Positions 5,426-27,489 of a stretch of 64,000 bases of DNA are shown piece after piece. The notes under the pieces were generated by a model, which saw nothing but the letters and a program-made list of their open reading frames with translations, did no database searches and had not been told where the DNA came from. A program made the translations under genes and the position numbers. Numbering within the stretch: position 1 is the first letter of the stretch; the number at the start of each line of letters is the position of its first letter. Origin of the DNA: Bacteriovoracaceae bacterium (GTDB taxonomy: Bacteria; Bdellovibrionota; Bacteriovoracia; Bacteriovoracales; Bacteriovoracaceae); NCBI GenBank assembly GCA_016786485.1, contig JAEUWD010000048.1, forward strand, positions 124,001-188,000. The letters are read 5' to 3'.

Positions 5426-5438
5426 TTTGGAGGATACC

Positions 5439-6782
5439 ATGTTTGACATTTCTGAAAACCAAGAACTTTCCGGCGGAGCAAAAATAAAAGTAATCGGTGT
5501 TGGTGGCGGCGGTTGTAATGCTGTTAATACAATGATTCGCTCTGGTCTTCAGGGTGTTGAATATATTGTTGCTAATACGGATGCTCAAGCGCTTAACGCA
5601 AGTTTGGCGAAAGTGAAAATCCAACTAGGCGCTGAAGTGACTAAGGGTCTTGGAGCTGGTGCCAATCCAGACGTAGGTCGTAAAGCTGCTCTTGATGATT
5701 ATGAAAAACTAAGTGAAATTTTAGAAGGTGCTGATATGGTTTTCGTAACTGCCGGAATGGGTGGTGGTACCGGAACTGGTGCTGGTCCAGTTATCGCGAA
5801 ACTTGCTAAAGAACTAGGCGCACTAACTGTTGGTGTTGTGACGAAGCCATTCTTATTTGAAGGCAAGAAACGTATGAAGCAAGCTGAGCAGGGTATGAAC
5901 CTGCTTCGCGAGTGTGTCGATTCACTAATTACAATTCCAAATCAAAGATTATTAAATCTAGCTGGTGAAAATTTATCACTTGTTGATACCTTCAAAAAAG
6001 CTGATCAAGTTCTATTGAATGCAGTTCAAGGTATTTCAGATTTAATTAATAATACAGGTCTTATCAACGCAGACTTTGCGGACGTAGCGACAGTTATGGC
6101 CAACAAAGGTTTAGCTCTTATGGGAACTGGCGTTTGTTCAGGTCCAGAACGTGCGATTAAAGCTGCAACAGAAGCGATCAGTTCACCACTTCTTGAGGAT
6201 ATCTCAATCGATGGTGCAACTGGTATCATCATCAATATCACAGGTGGTTCTAACTTAACTACACATGAAACAAACGAAGCTGTAACTTTAATTATGGAAG
6301 CTGCGGATGAAGATGCTGAAATCATTTTTGGTACAGTTATCGATGAAAACATGGATGAAGAAATCAAGGTGACAGTTATTGCAACTGGCCTTGGTGGTAA
6401 AAATAAAACAGCAACTATTGCATCTGAAGATAAATACGCTGCAGAACTTACGGTTTCTCAACCTGAGTTGCTAGCGACTTCAGTGGTAAAAGAAGAAGTG
6501 AAACCAGCAGTAGAAGCTCGTCCACATCTTTCACAAGCGATTAAAGAAGCGGCTCAGAGATATGAAAGTCATAAAAATGTGGCGCCAGAAGCACCATCAG
6601 CTGTGATCGAAAAAACAGCTACAGCTTCAGCGGCTGAAAAGAAAGTTGTAGCACAAGAAATTCCAACTCGTGCTCGTACGATTGCTGAGAAGCTTGGATT
6701 TATGAATTTTGACGAAAGTGAATTCGATACACCAAGTTACCTAAGACGTGATGGAAATTCTGAGTCTAACGAAAGACTTTAG
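5439..6782 (+). CDS. ftsZ: FtsZ, tubulin-like cell-division GTPase
   Basis: FtsZ polymerises with GTP into the Z ring. The start is set at the ATG with GGAGG six bases upstream, giving [10 protein letters not shown] and 447 aa. An in-frame ATG 36 bases earlier lies inside ftsA and has no such site. Seen: [11 protein letters not shown], the tubulin signature [25 protein letters not shown] and the NADFADV T7-loop region. A variable linker of about 100 residues rich in Ala, Glu and Lys follows. The tail FDTPSYLRR is the conserved peptide that binds FtsA and other partners. Its stop codon overlaps the end of the opposing RNase J gene. Confidence 0.98.
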
Positions 6783-8392
6783 ATAACATGCACGTGGGTA
6801 ACAGGTTTATAACCTAAATCCGCATTTAAATAGCGTCTGATTTCAATTTTAATATTGTCGGCCAATTCTAGGTCGGTGGATTTTTTCCACATGCCATTAT
6901 ATTTACTGCTGATCAGATCAGTCAGAGGAATTTTCTTTTCATTAGTAGCTAGCGGTAGACCATACATCGTTATTTGAAGCTCATGGTTCTTTTTTTGAAA
7001 TGTGACAAAGACTGCGCCATTACACGACATTTTTCTACGTTCAGAAATTTGTGAGCGTTCGATTTCCAAATGTTCGCCGTGGATAATAAGTGGTTCATTC
7101 ACTTCGTGCTGAACGATATCTGTTTTATTTTCAGCTATTTTTATTTCGCCGAAGTTTTTTAATTCGAAAGTTTTTATTTCTGGGAATTTTTTTTGAATAA
7201 ACTGTGCATGTCGCTTAAGAAACAAAGTTTCACCATGAATAGGAATATAGTGTTGTGGTTTAATACGATTGATGAGTTCAATCAGATCGGTTTGGCAGGC
7301 ATGACCTGAAGCATGGATATTTTTATCTTTTGACGTAATAACTTCAGCCCCTTGGGCGATGATGCTGTTATAGATACGTGCAATTTTCTTTTCGTTCCCT
7401 GGAATAACTTTTGAACTAAAAACCACCGTATCGCAAGTTTTTAGTTTAAAATCCGGATGTTCACCGGTGCTAAGTTTCTTTAAGGCGCTGAAATGATCGC
7501 CTTGGCAGCCCGAAACAAAAATCAGAATATTTGATTTATCCTTTAGTTCATCAATATGCCGTAAATCATCTTCATGATATTGAAGCACACCAGTTTCACG
7601 CGCATTGGTCATATAATTTTCAATTGAACGACCAAGGAAAGAAAAAGGTTTTTTATATTTTTTGCAGGCATTAATAAAGCTCTGCATACGATGAATGTTG
7701 GATGAAAACAAAGTGACAAAAAGGCGACCAGGGTGCGACTTCACTACTTCTTCAATATCAGGAATGAGTTCAGATTCCGATGGAGTTTTGGTTTGGTAGA
7801 GAATATTAGTGCTGTCTAAAAAAGCGTAGGTTTGTTTAGCGGCAGCAAAGTGTTTCGCGATTTTTTCAAAATTAAAAGCTTTTTCATATGGTGGATTGAG
7901 ATCAAACTTAAAATCAGAAATATACAAGGCACAGGCATTTTTTTTCTTATCTTCAATCAGGAAACCAAAAGTTTCTGGAATAGAATGTGTGACATGCACA
8001 GGATGAATATTAAGATGTTTAAAACTTAAAACATCATTTTCTCTAAAAATATTAATTCGTGTCACAATTCCTTGCTCATCCAAGCGATGACGTATGAGTG
8101 AGGTGGCAAATTGACTGGCCCAAATTTTAATCTCAGGAAATTTTTTAAGAATATGCGCCACGGCACCAATATGATCTTCATGGGCATGTGTAAAAAGAAT
8201 GTCGGTAACGTTTTCTTTTTCAAGTATCTTTACATCGACGACTAGATAGTCGATATCGAAGTGATCTTCATAGGGAAAAAGAATACCTGCATCGATAATA
8301 ATGGTTTGTTCGGGCGTTCTGACCACGGTTAAATTTGAGCCAATTTCACCGACGCCGCCAAGTGGTAGAATCGAAAAATATGGATTGCTCAA
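6779..8392 (-). CDS. rnj: RNase J family ribonuclease
   Basis: Metallo-beta-lactamase/beta-CASP ribonuclease with 5'-3' exo- and endonuclease activity in RNA decay. The zinc motif H-A-H-E-D-H is at residues 69-74. Further motifs: ISDFKFD, the beta-CASP block from [11 protein letters not shown] to [11 protein letters not shown], then [20 protein letters not shown] and YIPIHGE. A smaller C-terminal domain follows. The 537 aa match the usual 550 or so. It lies eight bases downstream of the uridine kinase gene, suggesting co-transcription, and is convergent with ftsZ with a 4-base overlap and no visible terminator. Confidence 0.95.
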
Positions 8393-8399
8393 GTTAGCC

Positions 8400-9059
8400 T
8401 CACAGTGTGATGTGAGAAGTTTCAGTCTCGCTCATATTTATGTGAGTTTGACGATCTGTTAACATTTCATTGATTCGGGCGGAAAGAATATCAGCCGCAA
8501 CATCTGTTTCTTCTCCTACAATAAAGTCAGCGTAGTCTTTTTGTGGAGATAAATATCTTTGGTACATTGGACGAACGGTATCGTAGTATTGCTCAATAAC
8601 TGATTCTAGTGAACGGCCACGCTCTTTAACGTCGCGGTGTAATCTACGTGTGAACCGAATATCGGCTTCCACATGTAAAAAACATTTAATATCTAAAATT
8701 TTACGAATTTCTTCATCGTAGAGAGAAAAGATCCCTTCGAATATAATAATATCTGAAGCCTCGATCATGTGAGTTTGATGAGTTCGGCGATGTTCAGTGA
8801 AATTATAAATAGGAACTTCAATTGAAAGACCTGATTTAAGATCATTTAAATGTTCACGTAAAAGATTCCAATCAAAAGCTTTTGGATGATCGAAATTAGG
8901 ATGACCTTTTGGTGACTTAAGATTCGCACTTGGCGTTGGTAAGTAATATGAATCCATATGAAGGATATTACATTTACCTTTGGTAACTTTATCTAAGACC
9001 TTTTTTGCAAAAGTTGTCTTACCTGAGCCGGATCCACCTGCGATACCAATAATAATCAC
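8400..9059 (-). CDS. udk: Uridine kinase
   Basis: P-loop kinase of pyrimidine salvage that phosphorylates uridine and cytidine. The start chosen is a GTG with AGTAGG just upstream, so the protein begins VIIIGIAGGSGSGKTT as in the family. An ATG 60 bases further upstream (9119) gives a 20-residue extension that looks non-conserved and lacks a ribosome-binding site. Other motifs: HMDSYYL, NFDHPKAFDW, PIYNFTEHRRT, FEGIFSLYDEEIR and FTRRLHRDVKERGRS. The C-terminus is about ten residues longer than usual. The gene leads the rnj transcript and diverges from prmA. Confidence 0.9.
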   Translation of the reverse strand: MIIIGIAGGSGSGKTTFAKKVLDKVTKGKCNILHMDSYYLPTPSANLKSPKGHPNFDHPKAFDWNLLREHLNDLKSGLSIEVPIYNFTEHRRTHQTHMIEASDIIIFEGIFSLYDEEIRKILDIKCFLHVEADIRFTRRLHRDVKERGRSLESVIEQYYDTVRPMYQRYLSPQKDYADFIVGEETDVAADILSARINEMLTDRQTHINMSETETSHITL

Positions 9060-10920: not shown

Positions 10921-11640
10921 ATGAATAATAAAGAAATCAATGAATTGTTTGATGGCAAAATAAAGTTTAAACCACTTACCTCTGGTTTGGGTTTTCATCA
11001 CCAAAAAACTGAAGTTAAAGCTGCTCCTAAAAAAATTCATATTCCAACTACTGTTGAACTTAAAATTCGTGAAAATAGTTTGGCCCAATCGCTAGAGAAA
11101 GCGAGCCAAATAATGCTGGGTAAAGAAGAAGGCGTTGATCGTGGCGACCTCTCACCTTTCTATTCGAAATCGCAGAACTATGCTCCAACTAAAGAGATGA
11201 GCAGTGAAGTGGTATTGGTCTCTGCAACTAATGAAAATGCCGAAACTATGGAAAGATTAAGTGCTTGGTTTGTTGATATGGCGATCATTTTAGTCATGTT
11301 TGGTATCAGCGTACTGGCGATTGTTGGTATTGCAGCGAGCTCAAGCACAGAATTTACTAAAATTGTGACTCATGAAAATATTTGGTTAGTTTTAAGCCCT
11401 ATCAGTTTTTTTTATTATTTCTTCTATTTTACTTTTTTAGATAAATCAGAAAAATCGACCATTGGTAAAAACTTGATGAAGCTTAAAACGGTGGCGGCAG
11501 ATACGGAGTCGAAGATTGATATTTATCAGACTTCGAGTCGTACGTTTGTGGTGCTATTTAATATTCTCACTTTTGGGATTGGTGGTCTTTTGGATCTTCA
11601 AAACAAGCTGACCCAAACCCGTGTTATTCAAAATCAATGA
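10921..11640 (+). CDS. RDD-family membrane protein
   Basis: A soluble N-terminal half of about 115 residues is followed by an RDD domain: ERLSAWFVDMAIIL with the membrane-embedded Arg/Asp pair, a first segment near 120-140, a second near 155-175, then GKNLMKLK and a last hydrophobic stretch near 205-225. RDD proteins are multi-pass membrane proteins of mostly unknown function. The N-terminus carries a short motif, FKPLTSGLGFHHQK. An AGAAGGGAAG ribosome-binding site lies just upstream. The stop overlaps the next gene by 4 bases, linking it to heptose metabolism only by position. Confidence 0.8.
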   Translation: MNNKEINELFDGKIKFKPLTSGLGFHHQKTEVKAAPKKIHIPTTVELKIRENSLAQSLEKASQIMLGKEEGVDRGDLSPFYSKSQNYAPTKEMSSEVVLVSATNENAETMERLSAWFVDMAIILVMFGISVLAIVGIAASSSTEFTKIVTHENIWLVLSPISFFYYFFYFTFLDKSEKSTIGKNLMKLKTVAADTESKIDIYQTSSRTFVVLFNILTFGIGGLLDLQNKLTQTRVIQNQ

Positions 11641-12092
11641 AACTAAGCCCTGCTGCTGAAAAATTTCTTAAGCAAAACCAAGGTAAAAAAATTGTTTTTA
11701 CTAACGGTTGCTTTGATATCATTCATCGTGGTCATATTACTTACTTAAATGAAGCCAAGAAATTAGGTGATGTACTTTTTATTGGACTGAACTCAGACAA
11801 GAGCGTTAGGCGATTAAAGGGTGAGGATCGTCCGATAAATAATGAACAAGATCGTGCCTTCGTTTTGCTAAATCTTAAATCAGTGGATTTTGTTGAAGTC
11901 TTCGATGAAGAAACGCCACTTGCACTTATTAAGGCCGTAGCTCCAAAGGTTTTAGTTAAAGGTGGTGATTGGTCGGTGGATAAAATTGTCGGTTCTAAAG
12001 AAGTTCTAGCGCTTGGAGGCGAGGTTTTCTCTTTAAAATTCGTCGATGGGCACTCTACTACTAGTATTATTCAAAAAATTCAGAGTCTCTAA
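11637..12092 (+). CDS. rfaE2: D-glycero-beta-D-manno-heptose 1-phosphate adenylyltransferase
   Basis: Stand-alone equivalent of the C-terminal domain of HldE. It makes ADP-heptose for the LPS inner core. The nucleotidyltransferase signature is TNGCFDIIHRGHITYL (the H-x-G-H site), followed by GLNSDKSVRRLKG, RPINNEQDRAFVL and LVKGGDW. The 151-aa length matches the one-domain family. No kinase domain is fused and no heptokinase gene is nearby. ATGA overlap with the RDD gene indicates coupling. ADP-heptose would be a donor for GT9-type heptosyltransferases such as those further along. Confidence 0.93.
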   Translation: MKLSPAAEKFLKQNQGKKIVFTNGCFDIIHRGHITYLNEAKKLGDVLFIGLNSDKSVRRLKGEDRPINNEQDRAFVLLNLKSVDFVEVFDEETPLALIKAVAPKVLVKGGDWSVDKIVGSKEVLALGGEVFSLKFVDGHSTTSIIQKIQSL

Positions 12093-12238: not shown

Positions 12239-13072
12239 ATGGGCTTAAGAATTGCGACAAACGTTGCTTCCCAAACCGCTGTAAAAAACCTCAGATTTAG
12301 CGGAGCTGAGCAGAGTAATGAGTTTGCTAAACTTTCATCTGGTAAAAGAATTAACCAATCTGCAGACGATGCAGCTGGGTTAGCGATTGCCAAGAAGTTA
12401 GAAGCAGAAACTCGTGGTATGAGACAAGCGAACAGAAACGCTAACGATGGTATCTCAATGGTTCAAGTTGCCGAAGGTGCCTTGAACGAATCAGGTAACA
12501 TCTTAACACGTTTACGTGAGTTAACTGTTCAAGCGGCTTCAGACACAATTGGTGAGAAAGAGCGAGGATTTCTTGATCTTGAATACCAACAATTAGTGCA
12601 AGAAGCTGATCGTATTGCACAATCTTCTACTTACGCTGGTATTCCAGTTGTAAAAGGTGAAACTGGTGCAGGCACAATGGAATTCCATGTTGGTGCTTAT
12701 GCTGGTGAAAATAACAAAGTTACATACGAAGCAGATTATGTTGATGCAACTGCCTCTACTTTAGAAATTGATGGTACAGGTATCAGCACAAGAGATGATG
12801 CTAACGATTCAATGGAATACATCGATAACGCGATTGAAATGGTGGCTGGATACAGAGCAAGTTTAGGTTCAATCCAATCACGCTTACAATCTTCAGTACG
12901 TAACCTTGAAATTGCAGCGGTTAACCAAGATGCTGCTCGCTCAAGAATTGAAGATGTAGACTATGCTGAATCAGCTTCGAAAGTGGCTTCTATCAACGTA
13001 ATGAAAGACGCTGGTATCTCGACACTTGCTCAAGCTAACAATATCCCGAACTCAGCTTTAAGATTGTTATAA
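12239..13072 (+). CDS. fliC: Flagellin (short, D0/D1-only type)
   Basis: Structural subunit of the flagellar filament. The N-terminal D0/D1 region (SGAEQSNEFAKLSSGKRINQ, DDAAGLAIAKKL, NANDGISMVQVAEGAL) and the C-terminal D1/D0 region (RSRIEDVDYAESASKVA, GISTLAQANNIPNSALRLL) are canonical. The middle is only about 60 residues, so the outer D2/D3 domains are essentially missing; 277 aa is a compact flagellin. AGGAG lies seven bases before the ATG. A sigma-28-type promoter precedes it and a strong terminator follows, so it is probably a single-gene transcript. Confidence 0.97.
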   Translation: MGLRIATNVASQTAVKNLRFSGAEQSNEFAKLSSGKRINQSADDAAGLAIAKKLEAETRGMRQANRNANDGISMVQVAEGALNESGNILTRLRELTVQAASDTIGEKERGFLDLEYQQLVQEADRIAQSSTYAGIPVVKGETGAGTMEFHVGAYAGENNKVTYEADYVDATASTLEIDGTGISTRDDANDSMEYIDNAIEMVAGYRASLGSIQSRLQSSVRNLEIAAVNQDAARSRIEDVDYAESASKVASINVMKDAGISTLAQANNIPNSALRLL

Positions 13073-16368: not shown

Positions 16369-17276
16369 TAGACTTTTCTCCTACCGTAATCGAATTTTTC
16401 CTTAAGTGTAAGGTAAAAAGTTCTATCTTCATTTTTAATTAGGCTAATTGTGCGACTGCGATCTTTTTGAATAACCACCGTATCATCTGTATCGACACCA
16501 AAAACAATTTGGCCATCCAGTGTGATAGCGAGATTTGATTGAGGGCTTAATACTTTTATTTTTAATTCACTCTTATCCGGAATAACCATCGGTCTGTGCG
16601 TTAAACTATGCGGACAAATTGGGGTTAAAAGAATAGCGCTAACCTCTGGATGAACAATCGGGCCACCAGCAGCAAGTGAATAGGCGGTCGATCCTATGGT
16701 TGAACTTACGATAAGGCCGTCGCCTGATAAATTATAAATATGTTGATCGTTAGCTTTTACACTGATGGCAAACATACGGGCAATATCATTTTTACTAACA
16801 GAAATGTCATTAAAAAAGTTTCCTTTAAAAACTTGTTTTTCATCTTTGAAAACTTGTACTTTATAAAGTGGTTTAACTAAAACTTTAAACTTACCTTCTA
16901 AAACGTCACTGAGTTTTTCATAAAAATCCATTTTACTAAATTCAGTAATGAAACCAAGTTGCCCAAGGTTAACGCCGAAAATAGGAACTTGTTTTTTGGC
17001 AAAACGAGTAAGGCCCAATAAAGTCCCATCACCACCAAGTGATATAACTAAATCAACTTGAGTACAGATTTCTTTTTCAGAAGCAAAATTAAATGATTTA
17101 AATTTTTTTGTTTGGAAAATTTTTTCTAAGCGATCAAACTCAGATTTAATAAAAAAAATGTCTTTATTTCGACGCTCAAGCCAGTTTACCAAGTTGGGTA
17201 AAAGGTTATTAAACTCACTAACGGCGTGAGGTTTAAGCACAATGGCAATTTTCTTAATTCGTTTCGTGTTGTTCAT
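16368..17276 (-). CDS. nadK: NAD kinase
   Basis: Phosphorylates NAD to NADP. Seen: SLGGDGTLLG (the GGDG motif), FGVNLGQLGFITEF, NDISVSKND, and the glycine-rich GDGLIVSSTIGSTAYSLAAGGP active-site block, followed by CPHSLTHRP. The 302-aa length is normal. Its start lies 23 bases inside the response-regulator gene and its end overlaps recN by one base, so all are likely read from the same mRNA. Confidence 0.95.
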   Translation of the reverse strand: MNNTKRIKKIAIVLKPHAVSEFNNLLPNLVNWLERRNKDIFFIKSEFDRLEKIFQTKKFKSFNFASEKEICTQVDLVISLGGDGTLLGLTRFAKKQVPIFGVNLGQLGFITEFSKMDFYEKLSDVLEGKFKVLVKPLYKVQVFKDEKQVFKGNFFNDISVSKNDIARMFAISVKANDQHIYNLSGDGLIVSSTIGSTAYSLAAGGPIVHPEVSAILLTPICPHSLTHRPMVIPDKSELKIKVLSPQSNLAITLDGQIVFGVDTDDTVVIQKDRSRTISLIKNEDRTFYLTLKEKFDYGRRKV

Positions 17277-17652
17277 GGATCGCCTTAGTATTCGAAATAT
17301 TTAACATAGCGTTGAGTGCAAACTCAAGGTTTTCAAACGGTTTATTCAGAATAGTACAGTGATATTCTTTGGCTTTGGCCAAAACTTGGGGCGAGTTATA
17401 AGCTGTCATAATAATAAAAATCTGTGCAATTTCCTTAAGTTGATACTTCTTTTTTGATTCTTCGATGATATCAAAACCCGTAATATCTTTAAGCATCAAA
17501 TCACAAACAATTCGATCGTAATTATTTTTAAGAATATCTTTAATCGCATCACGCCCACTGGCAAAAGTTTTGACCGTCGCTCCCCGCTTTTCAAGTAGTT
17601 TTTTTAATGACTTTTGAATAAGTAATTCATCTTCAATGATAAGTATGTTCAT
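17254..17652 (-). CDS. Single-domain response regulator (receiver only)
   Basis: CheY-like receiver of 132 aa with no output domain. Acidic pocket EDE at 7-9, phosphoacceptor D51 in VCDLML, the Thr of IIMTAY and the Lys of NKPF are all present, so it should be phosphorylated. It overlaps the histidine kinase gene by 20 bases, so that kinase is its likely partner. With no DNA-binding domain it would act by protein contact. The target is unknown; its place at the end of a flagellar operon suggests motility, but this is inference. Confidence 0.88.
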   Translation of the reverse strand: MNILIIEDELLIQKSLKKLLEKRGATVKTFASGRDAIKDILKNNYDRIVCDLMLKDITGFDIIEESKKKYQLKEIAQIFIIMTAYNSPQVLAKAKEYHCTILNKPFENLEFALNAMLNISNTKAIHEQHETN

Positions 17653-19177
17653 TATTATTTATTGGCAGTTTTACAATAAAACTGGCCCCTTTTGTGTATG
17701 CAAAATCAAAGTATAAATCACCTTTCATTCGACGGACTAGATTACGTGAGATGGGTAAGCCTAAACCGGTGCCACTTTCTTTAGTGGTATAGAACGGTTG
17801 GAATAAATAATCGGCTTTCTTTTTTTCGATACCAGGTCCGTTATCGCTAACTTTGATGTAAAGGTCATGGTCGATCCAAACCTTAACGGTAATAGTCGGT
17901 TTCAAGGTTTGTGAAGTACGTAAAGCTTGTGCAGCGTTAACAATCAAGTTAAAGAGAATTTGAATAACCCAAGTTTGATTTACTTCCAGATTTAAATTTC
18001 CGCACTCTTCACTATATGCAATAGTTCTTTCGATTCCGCGCGTTTCACTTTTAGTTAATGTAATCGCTTCATCGATGAGCTTTTGTAGTGATACCATTTG
18101 GGTTTTATTATTATTGCTGTAAATATTTGAGAAGTTTTCAATAATCAATTGGCAGCGCTCAACGCTTTTGGCAATTTCTTCGACGAGTTCTTTATCGTCT
18201 TGGTTTTTCATTTCAGATTCAATGATTTTACTGGAAAGGCCAAGACCAAACAGAGGATTACTTAATTCGTGTCTTAACGTATTAAGTAGTTCACCTAGTA
18301 AAGAAACACGTTGAAAGTGAAAGATATCAGAAGTGTGCTCAGCTAATTCATTATATTCATAAATCACTGCATAAATGTTGTCTTTGACCAAAAAACTTTC
18401 TTTTACTTTAAGATCTTCGTAATTTTCTAATTTTTTAAAAATAGTATTTTTAAAAATAATTTCTTGCTGATGATAGATGGCCATTGGATATGGATATTCA
18501 TGCAAACAGTGGATCAAGTGAATAATTTTTCGGTTCGCACTTTCTTGATAAAGGAGTCCGTTGAAGATTGGAAGTAACATGGAAGAGAAGCTATAAAAAA
18601 AATGAAGCTCTTCTTTATTGGGGACTAAAAAGTCATTACGGGAAATAACTAAAATAATATTGTACTTGGGTAAAATAAATTCTTTCGCCAGAAATGTTCC
18701 AACCAGTTTTAAATTAAGGTTTTTGATCTGACTTTGATTAAAAGATTTATTCTTACTTTTTTTAATGACGTTAAAGAGATAATTGAAATCATTAATATTT
18801 AAGATAGTATTTGAACTACCGTCTTCATGGATGTAATTGAAGCACGCAGCTTGGGTATTTCCTTTTTCATGAATAATTAGATGACATGAAAGATAGGAAT
18901 GCAGACCTTCGAGATTTAAAAATTCTTTAGGAAACGATTCGATACCATCGCAAAGCACCATGAGCTTTTCAAGTGAATCTTTCTTTTTTTGCCAGTGAAT
19001 GATTTGATCATGCTTATTGGAAACGGATTGTAAGTGAGCATACTTTTTAAGCAGTTTATTGCTTTCCTGCTCTAGCGACTTCATGGTTTTAGTAAAGTCG
19101 AATAAATTTAGGTCGTGGTCGTTTTTTGATTCGGAGTGGCTTGGTTTTTTAATGTTGAGATAATTTGTATTTTCCAC
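17633..19177 (-). CDS. Cytoplasmic sensor histidine kinase
   Basis: 514 aa with a GTG start inside the preceding gene. No membrane segment is seen. The N-terminal 60 residues include a short coiled coil. Residues about 65-215 look GAF-like and 220-290 PAS-like, by fold pattern only. The phosphoacceptor region is LRHELSNPLFGLGL (His303). The ATPase domain has LIVNAAQAL (N box), VSDNGPGIEKKKAD (G1), QPFYTTKESGTGLGLPIS (F/G2), which makes it NtrB/KinA-like. The receiver gene overlaps its end. The signal is unknown and the last residues read into a short PINNN tail. Confidence 0.9.
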   Translation of the reverse strand: MENTNYLNIKKPSHSESKNDHDLNLFDFTKTMKSLEQESNKLLKKYAHLQSVSNKHDQIIHWQKKKDSLEKLMVLCDGIESFPKEFLNLEGLHSYLSCHLIIHEKGNTQAACFNYIHEDGSSNTILNINDFNYLFNVIKKSKNKSFNQSQIKNLNLKLVGTFLAKEFILPKYNIILVISRNDFLVPNKEELHFFYSFSSMLLPIFNGLLYQESANRKIIHLIHCLHEYPYPMAIYHQQEIIFKNTIFKKLENYEDLKVKESFLVKDNIYAVIYEYNELAEHTSDIFHFQRVSLLGELLNTLRHELSNPLFGLGLSSKIIESEMKNQDDKELVEEIAKSVERCQLIIENFSNIYSNNNKTQMVSLQKLIDEAITLTKSETRGIERTIAYSEECGNLNLEVNQTWVIQILFNLIVNAAQALRTSQTLKPTITVKVWIDHDLYIKVSDNGPGIEKKKADYLFQPFYTTKESGTGLGLPISRNLVRRMKGDLYFDFAYTKGASFIVKLPINNNEHTYH

Positions 19178-19500
19178 CGAATAAGATTATCGACTAGCTC
19201 ATGCTCCATCAAGTCACAAAGCATGAAATTATCATTTTTTTCCCAAGAACTGACAATGGCCCGCAGGATTTGGAGGAGCTCGATACTTATTTGTTTTAAA
19301 TCGATCTTTACGTTCTGGTCGCAGTTTGAGCAAAAGACGGCTTCCGTTGTGAGTGAGGTGAAGCTTTCGATATGATCGATAGTGCTGTAAAGCTGTGAGC
19401 GACTCGGCCCATTGATACGCATACTTTGAGCTGTTTTAGTTACTTCTTTGATAACTCTATCTGAAATCATTTGTAGTGTTGAAAAGTGATTTGTTTCCAA
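19108..19500 (-). CDS. Unrecognised 130-aa protein upstream of the kinase
   Basis: I do not recognise this family. It is predicted soluble and mostly helical, with one CSNC pair near residue 58 and a Thr-rich tail. Its 3' end overlaps the kinase gene by 70 bases in another frame, an unusually long overlap. It starts one base after the stop of the GT9 gene. The tight packing suggests it works with, or is translationally coupled to, the kinase and regulator. It could be a sensor partner or a flagellar protein; sequence does not decide. Confidence 0.6.
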   Translation of the reverse strand: METNHFSTLQMISDRVIKEVTKTAQSMRINGPSRSQLYSTIDHIESFTSLTTEAVFCSNCDQNVKIDLKQISIELLQILRAIVSSWEKNDNFMLCDLMEHELVDNLIRWKIQIISTLKNQATPNQKTTTT

Positions 19501-19501
19501 A

Positions 19502-21184
19502 TTAAACCGTCCTTGAAGGTGTTGTGGAGGCAGTTGAATTTTGAGCCACGCACTGCGAAATTAGTTCATAGAAAATCGAACACGCCTGATTTCCTTGATT
19601 AAACCCAATCAAGGTGTTTTCGGCAACAGTAATAATACTGTCTCCTGGCACGTTTGAGAGCTTCACGTGATAGTAATTCACGATAGGCGCTAGAAACGGA
19701 TAGTGATTTTTAATGATCGAAGTCATCTGAATGATTTCATTTATTTTTGTATTGTACTCTTGTAGTTTTGGGATTTGAGGCGTTTTAGCTTTTGTTTCAT
19801 CCAGTAAAAATTTAGAAAAATTAGTTCCAAATTTATACAGTTCAAAAAGATGTGTGACACCTTCAAGATAGAAATTTAATGTCTTTTTTACGGTGTCAGA
19901 AAGTTTAGGCACTGAAGACGAAATTTCAAGGCCAGAAAGAGTAAATGACCACAAAATTTTATAAAACGATTGAAACAACATCATGGAATCAGTTTGTTGT
20001 TTGCTAATTTCTTCTAGTTCTAATTCACGTGTATCTGGTTCGTAGGTCTTAAACACATTTACATTATCAATTGATAAATCGCGGGCCTTGTCAGACTTTA
20101 ATAACTCTTGAACGTCACCACCGGCCAGAATGGTATTGGTAATCGCCACCACTGATTGGTAAGACAGATCGGAGTGGCAAGGCATCAACTCACATGGGGT
20201 TGTATTATGGCACGGGTAACACTTAATTCGAGGTGCGATATTGAGTGCGCCTACTTGGTATGGTGTTGTTTCATAAGGTCTTACTGTACCTAGTGAAAGT
20301 GTAAGCGAGGGAGTTTGTGCGACTGCCGCTAAATGCCCTACCATCGAATCATGACCGATAAATAGCTTAGCATCTGTTAATGTGCGGTAAACTTCTTCTA
20401 TACTTTTGGTGCCTACAAAATAATCAAGGCGATCAGAGAAGCCTTTTAAAATTTGGCTGTCCTTAAAAAAGTGAAGTTCACTTTCATCTTCTTTGCCACC
20501 CACCAGGGTAATTTTATAATCTGAATTGTGTTTTAGAATTTGATAAATTACTTCCAACCACTTTGAATGACCCCAGCGTTTCCGCTTTTCAGAGGCAAAG
20601 GGGTGGATAACAATACTATTTGAGCGAGTCGAAAGATCATTAGTGACCTGCGGGATTTCTGTGCGACTCACCCCGAGTATACGCTTATAGATATCGACTA
20701 AGTTATACGGCGTGAAAGCGGTTTTCATAATATTAGAAAAAACCAACTGACTCCAGGTATCGTTCACAATAATTTGAGCATTAGTGCTGCGATAACAGCC
20801 AATTTTGAGCGAGGTATTTACCAAGCTAGTTAAATACGTCGATGGCTTACAGAACGAAAGATTTACAACCACATCGATGCCAACATCGTTAATTGATTTT
20901 AACAATGATCGACAAGCATTCATAGTTTGCTTAAGGCTTTTTTCACCTTCATAAGCAAAAAAATCTTTAGTATCGAGGTAAATAATATTATCGAAAACTT
21001 CATCTAGCAAAAAAGCTAATGGTTTTGCAAATTTTTTACGTGCGATTAAAGTTAAGGCGACTTCTGGGTATTGTTTGTTTAATTCTTTGGCCGCGAGAAA
21101 GGTTTGAATCAGATCACCAATTCGAGTGAGCTGAATGATGGCCAAAGACTTTTTATTTTTTAGTTCGGACAATGCTAAATTCAT
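19502..21184 (-). CDS. GT9 (heptosyltransferase-like) glycosyltransferase
   Basis: 560 aa. The first 350 residues match the GT-B heptosyltransferase family (GT9): IIQLTRIGDLIQT near 17, IHPFASEKRKRWG near 193, ITLVGGKEDESE, the nucleotide-sugar motif FIGHDSMVGHLAAVAQ and a Cys cluster CYPCHNTTPCELMPC. About 190 further residues are helical and do not look like known GT9 enzymes. LPS heptosyltransferases are shorter, and the gene sits in a flagellar operon beside a Maf-like gene. Flagellin modification is therefore more likely than LPS core synthesis. Donor and acceptor are unknown. Confidence 0.8.
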   Translation of the reverse strand: MNLALSELKNKKSLAIIQLTRIGDLIQTFLAAKELNKQYPEVALTLIARKKFAKPLAFLLDEVFDNIIYLDTKDFFAYEGEKSLKQTMNACRSLLKSINDVGIDVVVNLSFCKPSTYLTSLVNTSLKIGCYRSTNAQIIVNDTWSQLVFSNIMKTAFTPYNLVDIYKRILGVSRTEIPQVTNDLSTRSNSIVIHPFASEKRKRWGHSKWLEVIYQILKHNSDYKITLVGGKEDESELHFFKDSQILKGFSDRLDYFVGTKSIEEVYRTLTDAKLFIGHDSMVGHLAAVAQTPSLTLSLGTVRPYETTPYQVGALNIAPRIKCYPCHNTTPCELMPCHSDLSYQSVVAITNTILAGGDVQELLKSDKARDLSIDNVNVFKTYEPDTRELELEEISKQQTDSMMLFQSFYKILWSFTLSGLEISSSVPKLSDTVKKTLNFYLEGVTHLFELYKFGTNFSKFLLDETKAKTPQIPKLQEYNTKINEIIQMTSIIKNHYPFLAPIVNYYHVKLSNVPGDSIITVAENTLIGFNQGNQACSIFYELISQCVAQNSTASTTPSRTV

Positions 21185-21312
21185 GTCCTTTCCTCTTCAA
21201 TTAATGAAGAAAGAAAAAGGATCTCAAGCTCGTCATTATCGACTTCGAGCCCACTATTAATCTTTTTTTGGATTTCATCCAATTTGCGGTAAATTTCTTC
21301 TTTAAAACTCAA
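21181..21312 (-). CDS. Small 43-aa acidic protein in the flagellar operon
   Basis: A TTG start lies five bases after a perfect AGGAGG (21318-21323 on the complementary strand). The product begins MSFKEEIYRK and ends LSSLIEEERT. It is very acidic, predicted helical, with no membrane segment. Its TGA overlaps the ATG of the GT9 gene (ATGA), the usual coupling form. The strong ribosome-binding site and exact overlap argue for a real gene. Function is unknown; a small adaptor or a translational leader for the glycosyltransferase are both possible. Confidence 0.65.
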   Translation of the reverse strand: MSFKEEIYRKLDEIQKKINSGLEVDNDELEILFLSSLIEEERT

Positions 21313-21336
21313 TCAGTCCTCCTTGAATTTAAGTCA

Positions 21337-22905
21337 TTAAAGACTTAATTCAGATTTGGTATTTGCTGCAGGATTAGCTGAACGATGGATTCTTTCTGAC
21401 GTACTCACTAGTATTTGACTGATAGTTTGCAGGTTGTTCTTCAATTCAAATAAACATTTTTCAACATAGCGGTGATTTTCTTCGCTATTGCCGTAAGGTG
21501 CATTTTCAATTCTAGCTTTGAAATAATGAACAACGCTCGAGCATAGATTCTTTTCGTTAGAAAAATTAAATAATTTATCCATGCCAATTAAGAATTCATG
21601 CGTATTGCGAGTTGAATTTTTAGCATTGATGAATGATCTTATGGTCGAAAGTAATGTTCTTAGAATTGTCGTCATGGGCTCTTTTTGTTCAGTAATGTAA
21701 CGAGACATTTCTTTTTCATGGCCGACAGCATGGAAAATTTCTGTTTGAGCAAAAACTTTGGCCGCGACTTGGCGTGAAAGGAAATATTCAATATCTCTTC
21801 GTGCATTTTGTGAATAAAGCGGGCGATAAATAATTCCCAACTCATCTTGCGCCGTTAAGTAAAGATCTAACTCACTACGAGTAATTTTGGTGTTCTCAAA
21901 ATAATATTCGATAGTGGCATAAAGGCTTGGTCCAATATTGGCTTCTTCTGTTCTTCTAACTGCGGTGAGGCTATTAATCAGACTGCTACCATTTTGATAA
22001 AATGACGTATTTGGATGGACACAAAGTGATGAAGTTTCACATAAATCAGCTAGTTGCAGATAACTTTGATTGGCACAAATAACGAGGTCTAGGTTTTTAA
22101 GAACCGCACCTGCCACGTATAAATCAGCATTGATAGTAATAATCTGATTGTTAAATGATTTATTAATCAAATTGATAACTTCTTTTTCTTCCGCATCACC
22201 CTGTATTAATAAAATAGGATAGTACGAATCAGATTTATAGAGACTATCAACGAGCGAAATGAGTTCGTGTTCTTCAATTGCTAATTGGCCGTCATCACCC
22301 ACAAATTGTATTCCAACGAATTTGACTTCTGTTTTGGTGTGCGCCAGTTTTTTGCGAATAATTTTAAAGTTTTCATTCGCGAGATTAATAAATTCTCGGT
22401 CGATATTTAAATGACTGCCTTTCGTAAATGGTAATGAATTGATTTGGGTATCTAAATCATGAGCATGAATAGTTGAGGCATTGTTTTGCGAAATAAGCTT
22501 TAGCATCGCCATGGTTGAAGATGCATGTAAACTCTTATTAGGGTTAAATGAAACGCCTTTTATTTTTTTTGTATTCAAAAAGCTTGCGATGAGAGCAGTG
22601 AATTGGTCACAGCTATAAGTATAAATCTCATCCCAAACTTCGCTTCTCATCGGAGTTAAAGCATTCCAAAATAAATTCAGTGCATGAGCGTCAGAATAAA
22701 TCTGACGTGACTTAAAAGTTTGAATTTTTTTTCTATCAACCACGTGGACTTGCTTAACGTACGGGATCAGTTTGGCCAGATTTGCGCTTTCTTGAAAACA
22801 CGAAATGTGGATTTCATTTCGGTCGCTATGCGCACGATATTGATTCACAAGGTGGGCACATGAAAGAAAGTCTTTCGTATTATAGGCCAGGATTAGAATT
22901 TTCAT
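21337..22905 (-). CDS. Divergent GT9-like glycosyltransferase
   Basis: The start is the ATG giving MKILILAYN, with GGGGAGG six bases upstream; this makes 522 aa. The Rossmann start and the block VAGAVLKNLDLVICANQSYLQLADL, matching the GT9 pattern where the motif is usually N-D-T/S-G-x-x-H-L-A, indicate a degenerate GT-B fold. The His and Asp of the classic motif are not kept, so activity is uncertain. A helical C-terminal region of about 170 residues resembles, in layout, the tail of the other GT9 gene. It overlaps the Maf-like gene by 26 bases. Confidence 0.62.
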   Translation of the reverse strand: MKILILAYNTKDFLSCAHLVNQYRAHSDRNEIHISCFQESANLAKLIPYVKQVHVVDRKKIQTFKSRQIYSDAHALNLFWNALTPMRSEVWDEIYTYSCDQFTALIASFLNTKKIKGVSFNPNKSLHASSTMAMLKLISQNNASTIHAHDLDTQINSLPFTKGSHLNIDREFINLANENFKIIRKKLAHTKTEVKFVGIQFVGDDGQLAIEEHELISLVDSLYKSDSYYPILLIQGDAEEKEVINLINKSFNNQIITINADLYVAGAVLKNLDLVICANQSYLQLADLCETSSLCVHPNTSFYQNGSSLINSLTAVRRTEEANIGPSLYATIEYYFENTKITRSELDLYLTAQDELGIIYRPLYSQNARRDIEYFLSRQVAAKVFAQTEIFHAVGHEKEMSRYITEQKEPMTTILRTLLSTIRSFINAKNSTRNTHEFLIGMDKLFNFSNEKNLCSSVVHYFKARIENAPYGNSEENHRYVEKCLFELKNNLQTISQILVSTSERIHRSANPAANTKSELSL

Positions 22906-23545
22906 TCTTTGCCTCCCCAACCTCGACGGTTAACATATGAAAAGCCAGAAAAAAGAGGTCTTTTTTATCGGTTAATGTTTTTAACCGGCTGATACTTTTG
23001 GTAAAATCATCAATGCTCGACTCATCAGTTATTTTCAATAGATCTTTTTGCAACTCTGGATGAACAATGCTGGCATAATCGCGCACGTAACTTGAATGTT
23101 TATATTTTAAAAATTGTTTAAACATTTCAAGATTCAAATTAAGTGAAACATCGTGAACCAAAACGGACGGCTTATCATAAAGGTAATTTAAAAAAGTTTG
23201 CTCAGAGTAAAGCTTGTTCACATCGCCTAAATGTTTAATGACTGTTTTATTATTGAGAAAAGGCCGTTTCTGATTAAAAAGCTTAATCAATTCTAAATTA
23301 GGTTCAATGATAATAATTTGATAATCAACTTTTTTCGAAACGAGATATTTGATGAGTTGGTCAACGTGAAAACCAAAACCTAAACCAAGTACAATGAACT
23401 GATGACGGTTATCAATCAGTGACATATTAGTCGTAACAAAAGCTTCTGCTTCTTTTACGGGATTATAAATGGAATGAAGATAGACACCGTCAATAACGGG
23501 GACATCATGTCCGGTTCTTGCTTCTTTGAGTACGATTTCAGGCAT
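22880..23545 (-). CDS. Maf-like (motility accessory factor) short protein
   Basis: 221 aa. LHSIYNPVKEAEAFV, then VLGLGFGFHVDQLIKYL and IIIEPNLELIKLF, match the N-terminal region of Maf flagellin glycosyltransferases: the pattern Y-x-P-x-x-E-A, L-G-x-G-L-G-Y-H-x-x-x-L, then V-x-E-P. The large C-terminal MAF_flag10 catalytic domain of normal Maf (600+ aa) is absent. Two GT9-like genes follow instead. AAGGA lies five bases before the ATG. Maf transfers nonulosonic acids to flagellin in Campylobacter and Aeromonas; a role here in flagellin modification is inferred from motif and location. Confidence 0.65.
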   Translation of the reverse strand: MPEIVLKEARTGHDVPVIDGVYLHSIYNPVKEAEAFVTTNMSLIDNRHQFIVLGLGFGFHVDQLIKYLVSKKVDYQIIIIEPNLELIKLFNQKRPFLNNKTVIKHLGDVNKLYSEQTFLNYLYDKPSVLVHDVSLNLNLEMFKQFLKYKHSSYVRDYASIVHPELQKDLLKITDESSIDDFTKSISRLKTLTDKKDLFFLAFHMLTVEVGEAKNENSNPGL

Positions 23546-23585: not shown

Positions 23586-23981
23586 TTATCTTTTTACATT
23601 ATTTAAATTGTACCCTTTAACCCCTTGTTTTTGTTTATGAACAACACCAATTTCCTGATGAGTTTTGTCTTTTATTGCGTGAAGTGTATCAAGTAACTTT
23701 TGATCAACTTGAAAAATTTGTTCCACACAAATTTGGGTACGTGAAACCCAGTTTTGAACTTTCATATTCAGCGTTTTTTCTGGCTGACAAGCTTTAAGCT
23801 CATTTTCGATTTCTGTCTGAAGTGTTGCAATAATATTCAGAAGTCTTTCGCGATTCTGAGCATCAGCCTCAATTCCGTTGATGTTTTCAGTATTGGCATC
23901 CGCTAACATTTTTTCAGTTAACTCAAGAGACTTATTAAGTAGGTCGAGGTGTTGATCCATTTTATAAATAACGTTTTCCAT
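23586..23981 (-). CDS. FliT/FlgN-like flagellar chaperone (by position)
   Basis: 131 aa, highly helical, with heptad-like stretches (LDLLNKSLELTEKML, then NRERLLNIIATLQTEIENEL). It lies right after fliS with a one-base overlap. fliT follows fliS in many fliD-fliS-fliT operons, and FliT-type export chaperones are short helical proteins that bind FliD. No motif is strong enough to prove identity, so the name is positional. It has a basic C-terminal tail ending NNVKR. Confidence 0.55.
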   Translation of the reverse strand: MENVIYKMDQHLDLLNKSLELTEKMLADANTENINGIEADAQNRERLLNIIATLQTEIENELKACQPEKTLNMKVQNWVSRTQICVEQIFQVDQKLLDTLHAIKDKTHQEIGVVHKQKQGVKGYNLNNVKR

Positions 23982-24379
23982 TAGCCTTCCTTTGTTTGTG
24001 GAGCAGTTGTTTTCATATTTTTAACGGCCTGTAGCCACCCATCATAAAGTGTGTTCAGAACGTTAAGACAACCTTCAAGTGGTTTTGCGTCGATATTGAT
24101 ATTGGCTTGTGTACTGGCATGGAGGATATAGTCGTAAAGTGATTCGAGCTCTTTTGAAACAGTGCCACCGACTTCGTGATCAAGACTGTTCACTAATTCA
24201 ATAATGATGTCTTGTAGTTTTCCAATATGCTCGCCCTTTTTTGCAATTTGCTTTTCATGGATAGCGTCAATGGCAAGTCTGCAGTTTTTAATTGCAGCTT
24301 GATAGAGCATGAGCAGGATTTGTTCCTTACTCGCCGTTTTAACCGATGTTTTTTTGTAGGCCCCTAACCCGTAGCTCAT
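23981..24379 (-). CDS. fliS: FliS, flagellin export chaperone
   Basis: 132-aa four-helix protein that binds the flagellin C-terminus before export. It shows the family pattern: an N-terminal GLGAYKKTSV, TASKEQILLMLYQAAIKNCRLA, a middle helix IIELVNSLDHEVGGTVSKELESLYDYIL, and LNVLNTLYDGWLQAV. It starts 21 bases after fliD and overlaps the next gene by one base. Confidence 0.93.
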   Translation of the reverse strand: MSYGLGAYKKTSVKTASKEQILLMLYQAAIKNCRLAIDAIHEKQIAKKGEHIGKLQDIIIELVNSLDHEVGGTVSKELESLYDYILHASTQANINIDAKPLEGCLNVLNTLYDGWLQAVKNMKTTAPQTKEG

Positions 24380-24400: not shown

Positions 24401-25792
24401 CTAACCCAGTGGTGATGGAGCTGAGCCAATTCCAGCTAATCCAGCACCCTGAGATTTGATTCTATTTATAGTTTCTTCTAATCTTGCAAATTTTGCTTTT
24501 AAATTTTCTTCTTTTCTGGCGATCATTCGCTCTTTGTTATCAATTTGTTTATCGATGTCATCAATATTTCTTTGTAGGCCATTTTTGCGTGAATTAAGGA
24601 CTCCGTTTGGCTGTTGTAAGAGTTGGTTAACAACACTGTCGAGATTGTCGACAAAGCCGTTATTTTTACCACCCTCAATTGAATATGACCCTGCCACAAT
24701 TTCTGAAACTTTTTGATAATTACTTTCTATTTCCTTTTCGAATTTAGCAGCATCGAATTTTAAAACCCCGTTACGTTGAAAACTAATACCGATATCGCTG
24801 ATTCGGAACACACCGGTTTTGGTACGAATTGGAGTAAAAATGGTACTGCGTAAACGACTTTCTAGTGTTTGCAAGGTGATATCACCACCCAGTGTCTTGG
24901 AAGTATCAGTCGTCTCATCCATCGTGTTTTGGCTTTTAATGAATTCAAAAACCTTATTGATATTATCAACAAGGGAGCTAATTTTTCCGGTAATGGCCTG
25001 TGAGTCTTCTTTTACGCTTAAAGTGAATTCATCACCTGGTTTGGCTTTCTTCAAATCAATGGTGAGGCCAGGAATAATTTCATTGGCCTTATTTTCTGGT
25101 ACCTGAATTTCAAATCCGTCCAGCTTAATTTTAGCATCCTGAGCATCTCGATGTGATTCGAAGTAAAGATCTTCTTCACCGTCGACGAAATATAAATTGG
25201 GGAACTCGGCTTTTTTCCCATCACCTGTACTGGTAAGCGCAATAATGAGTCGCCATGGTTTCTCTTTATCCGTTCCGTCGTTAACAACGGTAGCATGCAT
25301 GCCACTTTCCGAATCTTTATTTATTAGTTTGGCAATACCATCTAGGCTTGAATGTTCTTCATCAATGTAAACTTCTTTGGTGCTGCCATCAGGAAGTTTG
25401 TATTGGATGTAGCCAACACCTAAATAAGTATTTTCCTTATCTTCAATCCCGTTAGAGATGGCCGATGATTTTCGTGCGAGTTGAGTCACTTCAACTTGAT
25501 AATTCCCTGGCATTGCAATATTTTTATCGGCGGTGACACCAATCAGGTTTTCATTCGTGTCAATTTTAATTTCGCGTAAACTTCTTTCGCCTTTGTTCTT
25601 AAAAACTTCACCGCGTACGTTCTCCATCAATTTAGTGAGTTCGCTTACTAGGCCTTTTTTGGCTTCGATTTTACTTTTGCGTTCTTGCATTTGCTGAATA
25701 GGAATTTTTTCGCCCGCAACAATCTGTTGAACGATATCTTTAGGCAATCCTGAGTTGATAGAACCAAAGGCAATTCCCAATGCATCCTCCAT
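24401..25792 (-). CDS. fliD: FliD, flagellar filament cap
   Basis: Cap protein (hook-associated protein 2) that folds flagellin at the filament tip. The N-terminus shows GSINSGLPKDIVQQIVAGEK followed by a basic coiled coil, VEVTQLARKSSAIS and LDGIAKLINK. The C-terminus shows DIGISFQRNGVLKFDAAKFE and a terminal coiled coil from LDSVVNQLL to RLEETINRIKSQ. The 463 aa are typical. AGGATGC-like sequence is upstream, though the ribosome-binding site is modest. It is the first gene of the long - strand operon. Confidence 0.94.
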   Translation of the reverse strand: MEDALGIAFGSINSGLPKDIVQQIVAGEKIPIQQMQERKSKIEAKKGLVSELTKLMENVRGEVFKNKGERSLREIKIDTNENLIGVTADKNIAMPGNYQVEVTQLARKSSAISNGIEDKENTYLGVGYIQYKLPDGSTKEVYIDEEHSSLDGIAKLINKDSESGMHATVVNDGTDKEKPWRLIIALTSTGDGKKAEFPNLYFVDGEEDLYFESHRDAQDAKIKLDGFEIQVPENKANEIIPGLTIDLKKAKPGDEFTLSVKEDSQAITGKISSLVDNINKVFEFIKSQNTMDETTDTSKTLGGDITLQTLESRLRSTIFTPIRTKTGVFRISDIGISFQRNGVLKFDAAKFEKEIESNYQKVSEIVAGSYSIEGGKNNGFVDNLDSVVNQLLQQPNGVLNSRKNGLQRNIDDIDKQIDNKERMIARKEENLKAKFARLEETINRIKSQGAGLAGIGSAPSPLG

Positions 25793-26004: not shown

Positions 26005-27489
26005 GTGAAAAGTTCAAGTATTATCAAGTTAAAGTCTAAATTCTTTTTATTTCGGGCACTTACATACTTTTCTTTCCTTCTTATTCCGATTTGGATCCAA
26101 AAGACTTACCAACTAGATTTATCAATTATTGCTGTTTTGATTTTGCTTTATTTTTTATTTATGGCGAGTCAATGGTATCTGTTGGGCAAAGAAATCGATC
26201 ACCGTTTAAAAATTTATTTCCGAGCAAATTCGTCAATTGATCGTATTTTATACCGAATTATTTTAGGAAATATCGCACTTCTCATTTATTTCAATTTTTT
26301 AAATCTCATTCCAGGCGATCTGATTAAACATTTTTTCTGGGGAACGTGGGTGGTACTTGGTTTGTTTTATTCCTGGCCGACACGGGGAAAAATCATTGAA
26401 GAAAGTGTGACTTCGCAACTAGAGGAATTTAAATTTCTCGATCGTTTTGAAAAAACTGTTTTATTTTTGGCCTTAGTTTTATTTATTATTTCTATTCCCG
26501 AAATTCCAGCGCTCGAAAATATTGAAGCTTTTAAACTTATCATTGATCCAAGTGAAGAAATTCACCCGCAGCTGTGGAATTTTTTAAGTGTAAATTATTA
26601 TCCGTTTGTGAAGTTTCCAAAAGTTTATGCACTTGCTTGGTCGCTACATTTATATTTTATAGGAATCGGTTTTTATCTCTTGGCGCTCTATGGAATTTTA
26701 CGTTTCTTTGTTTCTCGTCGCTTGTCAATTTTAGGTGTTTTCTCTCTTATTTCAAGCTGGTCATTTTCAAAAATTCTGCAAGCCGATGTTGGGGCTTCAT
26801 TAACCACGACCTACTCACTTATTTGGATTTGGTCGTTAGTTTTTTGTACTAAAAGTTCAACCTATCGCTCAGGGCTTTTCATGGGTTTGGTCTGTTATTG
26901 GGGAACATTAATTCATCAGAACTTTGCATTCTTATTACCGATTCAATTAATTTTATTAAATCTTTTTTTAGTAAAAGAACGTACCAAATGGTATCGCATG
27001 CAGACCATGAAATATTCCATTTTGGGAATCATTTTAACTTTTATTAGTTTCTTCAGCCATGCCGATACAGCGTTCTCGTATAAGGGTATTGGCATTGTAG
27101 AAATCGTCACACAGAGCGTGGCTTTTCTTGATCAGAAAGCCTTTTTCTGGTTGGCCGGTTTTGGTTTAATTATTGTGTTATCCAGTCGTTTTGCGAATCG
27201 CTTTAATCAACTCTCAAAGCTTCGTATGGACACAACTAAGCTAAATGAAGTTTTGATTAGTTTTTTAATTATCGCAGTGGTTTCGATTATTTTAGAACGC
27301 AGCTTACTAAACCACTTTGGTTTGTTATGGGTTTTTGTACTACTAAGCTTGATTCCGCTCGAATGGATTTTTCAAGGTATTACTCGATTACGTTCACGCA
27401 GAAATATTATTTACGTTCTCTATATTTTGATTTGTTTGCTGGATTCTCACTTCGAAGGGCGACTTAAAATTCTGAATAAATTTTTCTAA
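26005..27489 (+). CDS. Unrecognised polytopic membrane protein
   Basis: 494 aa with about ten to twelve hydrophobic segments spread over the whole length, starting GTG with GGGG nine bases upstream. I recognise no motif. The layout, with a loop near 165-200 containing Asp, Glu and His and followed by many helices, resembles GT-C type glycosyltransferases (ArnT/PMT-like) but is not diagnostic. It diverges from the fliD operon across a 212-base gap and ends about 125 bases before the next gene. A role in sugar transfer to envelope or flagellar material is only a guess. Confidence 0.55.
   Translation: MKSSSIIKLKSKFFLFRALTYFSFLLIPIWIQKTYQLDLSIIAVLILLYFLFMASQWYLLGKEIDHRLKIYFRANSSIDRILYRIILGNIALLIYFNFLNLIPGDLIKHFFWGTWVVLGLFYSWPTRGKIIEESVTSQLEEFKFLDRFEKTVLFLALVLFIISIPEIPALENIEAFKLIIDPSEEIHPQLWNFLSVNYYPFVKFPKVYALAWSLHLYFIGIGFYLLALYGILRFFVSRRLSILGVFSLISSWSFSKILQADVGASLTTTYSLIWIWSLVFCTKSSTYRSGLFMGLVCYWGTLIHQNFAFLLPIQLILLNLFLVKERTKWYRMQTMKYSILGIILTFISFFSHADTAFSYKGIGIVEIVTQSVAFLDQKAFFWLAGFGLIIVLSSRFANRFNQLSKLRMDTTKLNEVLISFLIIAVVSIILERSLLNHFGLLWVFVLLSLIPLEWIFQGITRLRSRRNIIYVLYILICLLDSHFEGRLKILNKFF

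Follow-up and report, generated by a model that had tools for sequence, protein, structure and literature searches.

A free-standing Maf N-terminal domain and two GT9-type proteins form a putative flagellin heptosyltransferase in a Bacteriovoracaceae bacterium

Bacterial protein glycosyltransferases related to the present work are built in several ways. Maf glycosyltransferases join an N-terminal domain (PF20157) to a catalytic domain (PF01973), and NeuB is needed for their usual nonulosonic-acid donor sugars. GtfA/GtfB-type pairs consist of an active and an inactive glycosyltransferase, and the binding part of FlmG from Caulobacter resembles tetratricopeptide repeats (TPR). FlmG is described as a modular flagellin glycosyltransferase with a substrate-binding part and a transferase (PMC7591256). 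The Maf N-domain has a methyltransferase-like fold, and its function is described as unclear (PMC11339370). Aeromonas Maf1 is reported to bind flagellin in the cytoplasm and then to pass it to a FliS homologue (PMC4065374). Protein heptosylation is described as established for TibC, an enzyme with the fold of glycosyltransferase family 9 (GT9; PMC4358343), and O-heptose is reported on the flagellin of enterotoxigenic Escherichia coli (PMC5000012). Here we describe a gene set in a 64,000-nucleotide stretch of a Bacteriovoracaceae bacterium genome (the window; assembly GCA_016786485.1, contig JAEUWD010000048.1, positions 124,001 to 188,000). The set encodes a free-standing Maf N-terminal domain (MafN), a GT9 enzyme (P0001), a paralogue of that enzyme (P2) and a microprotein (Table 1). 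On balance we favor the view that it is a multi-protein flagellin heptosyltransferase, with P0001 as the catalytic subunit and MafN and P2 as accessory proteins.

In its proposed action the set resembles the flagellin glycosylation systems of the Maf and FlmG types, yet it is not a Maf, because the defining catalytic domain PF01973 was searched for and has no match in the genome (98% complete). It shares with Maf a homologous N-domain, a flagellar neighborhood, and the combination of a glycosyltransferase with a helical domain. It differs in that the N-domain is a separate protein, GT9 stands in place of PF01973, and NeuB (PF03102), which serves the usual donors, has no match in the genome. 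The first-pass annotation of the window had placed three genes next to fliD and fliS, and they are found at the coordinates given, on the minus strand. Its proposal that one Maf is divided over several proteins is not supported in that form, since PF01973 and NeuB have no match and P2, tried as the lost catalytic domain, was rejected (hhalign of 0.2% to full-length Maf). A GT9 enzyme, of the GT-B type and unrelated to that domain, occupies the catalytic place instead.

MafN is firmly tied to the Maf N-domain by profile and predicted fold, without the rest of Maf. The window protein had been said to carry only the Maf N-terminal pattern, and alone it indeed matches just part of PF20157 (Maf_flag10_N; E 0.0021, 18.0 bits), which is under the Pfam cut-off of 23.5. 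When family members are scanned singly, 17 of 46 match this domain at E <= 0.01, the best at 1.1e-6. The profile comparison that the annotation had suggested gave 97.0% (hhalign, MafN family against nine full-length Maf proteins, E 9.5e-11, 123 columns), and none of the controls (PrmA, NAD kinase, response regulator, RsmE, GT9 and P2) exceeded 15.7%. The nine Maf rows come from a different family within the phylum; PF01973 is found in 9/9 and PF20157 in 8/9. One row, L155, is a frame that has PF01973 and lies beside a frame matching PF20157, and omitting it gives 96.5%.

The AlphaFold model of MafN (predicted local distance difference test, pLDDT, 91) has a methyltransferase-like Rossmann fold and aligns with 5mu5, the Maf of Magnetospirillum (VIA-align, Z 9.5, root-mean-square deviation 3.8, 141 residues). 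In this ranking 5mu5 is tied with MnmC2 (Z 9.8), and other methyltransferase and spermidine synthase folds score Z 9.1 and below. A Foldseek search places MnmC2 and spermidine synthases on top and 5mu5 outside the best 50, and a search of the sequences of solved structures with the MafN profile gave chance matches but no Maf. The glycines of the GLGFG loop and H60, P82, H131 and S134, which follow other strands, are invariant in the 46-row alignment. Free MafN was searched within the phylum, and its profile matches 173 of 368 genomes, a count that includes at least one genome (G093) with full-length Maf. Nearly all MafN frames among the matches listed have about 180-300 amino acids, and two are cut at contig ends.

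P0001 is a GT9 enzyme with conserved catalytic residues and four conserved cysteines. Two GT9-like genes had been predicted in the window; the prediction stands for P0001, which is well over the cut-off of PF01075, and on weaker evidence for P2. The P0001 model (pLDDT 89) matches 3tov (Z 27.5), WaaC (25.5), WaaF (24.7) and TibC (17.8). Residues R21, G23, D24, K202 and D279 are invariant in 51/51 rows, and D24, K202 and D279 are presumably active-site positions with the same roles as in WaaC. Cysteines 322, 325, 331 and 336 are also invariant in 51/51 rows, and they are perhaps a metal site gained in the window's family. P0001 resembles TibC/AAH in its GT9 fold, in having four conserved cysteines on the C-terminal side of the catalytic core and in a weak match to the autotransporter heptosyltransferase model TIGR04414 (25.2 bits), but it is far below that family's cut-off of 200, and its model does not have the N-terminal beta-barrel. 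The four-cysteine finger of TibC/AAH is iron-binding. The cysteine spacing differs, at 322/325/331/336 in P0001 versus the 339/342/358/370 given for TibC (PMC4358343). The tree alignment also contains five GT9 proteins of other families, and these do not have the four cysteines at the aligned positions.

The C-terminal extra domain of P0001 (about 400-551) is helical in the predicted model and lies outside the region covered by the fold search. The two GT9-like proteins had been said to have similar helical tails, and this was not upheld: a tail-only hhalign gives 0.4%, and the P0001 tail, the sole one modelled, is helical. The P0001 tail gives 0.2% against the Maf C-terminal region, and hhalign comparisons of the P0001 and P2 tails with FliS, flagellin and the Maf C-terminal region, and of the P0001 tail with the 131-amino acid protein of the locus, are all below 1%.

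P2 is a GT9-derived paralogue of P0001, as judged by full-length profile. The window P2 has no match to PF01075, and its match to TIGR02201 (E 1.6e-6) is far under the model cut-off. However, 37 of the 48 P2 family members match PF01075, and the P2 and P0001 family profiles align at 99.7% (E 4.7e-26, 512 columns). The start of the gene is more probably the ATG at 22905, behind GGGGAGG and 15 bases inside the TTG annotated before. All four checked GT9 positions are kept in 35/48 P2 rows, while the window P2 does not have three of them. On the GT9 tree, degenerate P2 is found in a 10-row clade that includes the window (support 99) and in L120, with two as the fewest changes. Nine rows of this clade have P2, all degenerate, and the tenth, L114, is without it. 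P2 of L135 is also degenerate and is outside the tree, from which L042, L043 and L051 were omitted because of truncated or disrupted GT9 frames. At the P2 position in Bdellovibrio-type and other families, patterns show an R-x-G-D start in 18/18 proteins read and D-T-x-x-K in 17/18, so the decay in the window's clade looks derived. The pair is similar to GtfA/GtfB in that an active transferase gene lies beside an inactive paralogue; the likeness lies in the genes, and the GT family, sugar and substrate are different.

A 43-amino acid frame between P2 and P0001, absent from the gene list of the first-pass annotation, appears to encode a microprotein under purifying selection. It has a TTG start behind AAGGAGG, and its stop overlaps the start of P0001 as ATGA. 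Its relatives mostly have 42-58 amino acids, with a C-terminal leucine-rich stretch followed by EEE, and are found in 83 of 88 loci (61 of 64 distinct). The nonsynonymous rate (dN) is below the synonymous rate (dS) in 10/10 computable pairs (of 12), although many dS values are above 1 and hence imprecise. Among the loci without MafN, only L192 has an intact GT9, and it has the microprotein; the other MafN-less loci and other families gave no significant match.

Almost all flagellated members of the window's family carry the set, and Bdellovibrio-type predators have a matching one. In 37 loci of the family, FliD, FliS, MafN and GT9 are found in 37/37, and P2 is found in 36/37 by single-sequence search, while a profile detected a diverged P2 in the last. 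Among 59 family genomes picked before the result was known, MafN is present in 48 of the 53 that have FliD and in none of the six that do not; 11 further genomes, picked for having no MafN match, are excluded from this count. The long tailed GT9 was not found in the 11 FliD-less genomes examined. A GT9-alignment scan of named genomes gave 54 loci, and a single-protein scan of them matched none. Of these, 39 are named Bacteriovorax-, Bacteriovora(c)- or Halobacteriovora-, and the rest have names such as Oligoflexia or Bdellovibrionales, suggesting that the window comes from a relative of Bacteriovorax. GT9 is found in 54, P2 in 51 and MafN in 47; among the seven without MafN, L114 is by its length the same contig as L192, and by coordinates the other six contigs end near or before the place of MafN. 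Since L036-L072 and L088-L141 partly overlap, some contigs being in both collections, distinct counts were deduplicated, and 92 GT9 loci became 68.

Bdellovibrio-type and several other families have a near-identical set in the same order, with one extra gene just before MafN. The three extra genes tested all encode TPR proteins (L169:6988-8082, L176:7869-8852 and L074:8757-9581). This recalls FlmG, in which acceptor binding is in concept separate from the transferase. On the other hand, the window has no TPR gene between the 131-amino acid gene and MafN, the parts are separate proteins, and the transferase is different. Another family of the phylum has full-length Maf genes preceding flagellin, FliD and FliS (L145:2702-9000 and L148:7359-13600), so the phylum contains sets with full-length Maf as well as sets with free MafN.

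Natural losses connect MafN with P2 and with the state of GT9. Eleven genomes have FliD and no MafN, and nine of their loci are readable (L193 ends after fliS, and G280 was left out). P2 is missing from 9/9, and a GT9-derived gene is still in place in 9/9. Of the 35 rows with MafN, all but L071 (34) keep the GT9 active-site residues, versus one of nine without MafN (Fisher p 4.5e-7, computed on rows and ignoring kinship). GT9-derived genes without active-site residues persist after the loss of MafN and P2 in L186-L191, L194 and L195, where they follow the 131-amino acid gene, and seven of them still match the GT9 profile over the helical tail and a piece of the first half. In addition, L073 has a second MafN-P2 pair (4995-8962) beside a gene for a PilB-like ATPase of type II/IV secretion (T2SSE/MshEN), and no GT9 was found in that second locus. 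It is possibly the same module serving a pilus. This pair and the joint losses suggest that MafN and P2 travel as one unit.

The genome appears able to make ADP-heptose, as the annotation had considered possible. The gene at 11.6 kb, an adenylyltransferase that had been named as a possible source of this donor, is confirmed as RfaE2, and GmhA and HldD also pass their cut-offs. In 22 of the 23 loci holding both genes, RfaE2 and flagellin share a strand and are 129-524 bases apart; in the other the distance is 2,072 bases. The window flagellin is about 6.4 kb from the glycosyltransferase set on the opposite strand. Several conserved serines and threonines are spread over flagellin residues 96-219, and for this reason no acceptor site is proposed.

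In the mechanism considered most likely, P0001, with its GT-B fold, would transfer heptose from ADP-heptose to serine or threonine of flagellin in the cytoplasm. MafN would position flagellin or a ligand, and P2, whose sugar-nucleotide site is largely gone in the window's clade, would be an inactive co-subunit for acceptor recognition. Together they would be an accessory unit that presents flagellin to P0001, while the microprotein would belong with P0001. By analogy with Aeromonas Maf1, presentation and heptose transfer would precede the binding of FliS and export. That the proteins form a physical complex, when they act, and what MafN, P2 and the microprotein do are inferences. We also put forward, more tentatively, a modular flagellin heptosyltransferase of Bdellovibrionota that differs from the systems described so far: MafN and the GT9-derived P2, the latter catalytically dead in the window's clade, would direct a four-cysteine GT9 to flagellin, aided by a translationally coupled microprotein. 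If so, the Maf N-domain is a movable module for binding an acceptor or a ligand, combined in the course of evolution with two catalytic domains that are unrelated to each other, and because it is cut free and combined with another transferase, its role can be tested in isolation. The set would also explain genetically how flagellin comes to be heptosylated, and would be a case in which an active and an inactive GT9 protein are accompanied by a microprotein of their own. Among best-ranked titles, in a search that left most subscription journals outside its coverage, we found no description of a free Maf N-domain with GT9, nor of flagellin-modifying genes of this type in the Bdellovibrio-like group.

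Several observations weigh against a flagellin heptosyltransferase. The earlier interpretation is retained for the free Maf N-domain, the two GT9-type proteins and the flagellar operon, while glycosylation itself, flagellin as acceptor and heptose as sugar are read from indirect evidence. The heptose kinase-like protein, at 322 bits, falls short of its cut-off of 345. RfaE2 is found in 27/27 genomes tested, as LPS (lipopolysaccharide) alone would predict, which weakens its place beside flagellin as proof of the donor, and by coordinates it is far from MafN in several genomes (about 2.6 Mb in one Bdellovibrio-type genome). The loss of MafN and P2 and the decay of GT9 amount to only about three events, so that row statistics overstate the association; of three independent pairs comparing MafN loss with GT9 decay, one is as expected, none is opposite and two are equal. 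L192 has an intact GT9 without MafN and P2, and L071 retains MafN although P2 and GT9 have decayed. The best family matches of P0001 are LPS enzymes. In NCBIfam the order is LPS heptosyltransferase I, RfaQ, III and II, then Aah/TibC, all under cut-off (46.8, 41.5 and 37.5 bits against 185.3, 170.2 and 134.6 for the equivalogs I-III). Matches to LPS core enzymes only had been named as a result that would speak against flagellin modification; such enzymes do rank first, and Aah/TibC comes next.

This ranking fits the view that LPS or the membrane sheath of the flagellum, rather than a protein, is the target of the GT9 pair, whose operon position would stem from sheath assembly or from history. 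A published review deals with the flagellar sheaths of Bdellovibrio-like bacteria (PMC7175336). We regard this view as unlikely, since three further GT9 proteins of the genome pass the PF01075 cut-off, two of them outscoring P0001 on the LPS heptosyltransferase models and one scoring similarly; the Maf N-domain partner, the fliD-fliS operon and the FliD-less genomes without a long GT9 also point to flagellar proteins. The acceptor could be another of these, such as FliD, the hook, a hook-associated protein or the 494-amino acid protein at 26005-27489. The set directly follows fliD, the flagellin gene is distant and on the other strand, and the 494-amino acid gene is found in 36 of 37 family loci. 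Nevertheless, flagellin is the substrate in the Maf and FlmG systems known so far, the same operon contains fliS for the flagellin chaperone, and RfaE2 is beside flagellin in the family, making a different target quite unlikely.

The proteins might instead be chiefly export or assembly factors, with glycosyl transfer absent or secondary. One clade keeps a GT9-derived gene without an active site, its seven remnants match best over the helical tail, and P2 is degenerate in the window's clade. Residue conservation in 51/51 P0001 and 35/48 P2 rows is hard to explain without catalysis, and we give this a slightly lower probability again. The retention of dead GT9 genes in the operon with the tail still matching does suggest that the GT9 protein may also have a second, non-catalytic role. 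It is very improbable that MafN is an enzyme in its own right, similar to methyltransferases or aminopropyltransferases and modifying the glycan or flagellin after GT9 has acted. The predicted fold of class I methyltransferases and spermidine synthases suggests such an activity, and the invariant glycines, histidines, P82 and S134 fit a ligand pocket. However, the Maf N-domain of described function "unclear" has the same fold (PMC11339370), and MafN is lost together with P2, suggesting a shared task.

The set is likely part of a single operon. Twelve minus-strand genes from fliD (25792) to recN (14740) are separated by gaps of at most 40 bases, with several overlaps, in the order fliD, fliS, 131-amino acid gene, MafN, P2, microprotein, P0001, 130-amino acid gene, histidine kinase, response regulator, NAD kinase and recN. 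P2 starts before MafN ends, the two genes sharing 26 bases. Promoter-like sites are fewer than in shuffled sequence.

Table 1. Features of the locus in the window, with coordinates, strand and the evidence for each assignment
Feature	Coordinates	Strand	Evidence
MafN, free-standing Maf N-terminal domain, 221 aa (amino acids)	22880..23545	-	PF20157 weak match, hhalign, predicted fold
P2, GT9 paralogue, 522 aa	21337..22905	-	profile comparison to GT9
Microprotein, 43 aa	21181..21312	-	conserved frame, dN<dS
P0001, GT9 glycosyltransferase, 560 aa, proposed catalytic subunit	19502..21184	-	PF01075 64.5 bits (cut-off 22)
131-aa protein	23586..23981	-	window copy without usable Pfam match
fliS, flagellin export chaperone	23981..24379	-	PF02561 125.8 bits
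fliD, filament cap	24401..25792	-	PF07195 (FliD_C) 159.2 bits
130-aa protein directly after GT9	19108..19500	-	counterparts in most loci
RfaE2, heptose-1-phosphate adenylyltransferase	11637..12092	+	TIGR02199 210.9 bits (cut-off 181.5)
Flagellin, 277 aa, proposed acceptor (putative)	12239..13072	+	PF00669 113.9 bits, PF00700 77.3 bits

Counterparts of the 131-amino acid protein in other families, one of them Bdellovibrio-type, weakly resemble export chaperones by sequence, with matches to FlgN in L169 (E 1.3e-4) and to FliT in L074 (E 2.9e-4), both below cut-off. The 494-amino acid protein, which has no match in Pfam or NCBIfam, is encoded on the plus strand opposite fliD. The histidine kinase and response regulator genes (17254-19177, minus strand) are found downstream of the set in most loci, including those of other families.

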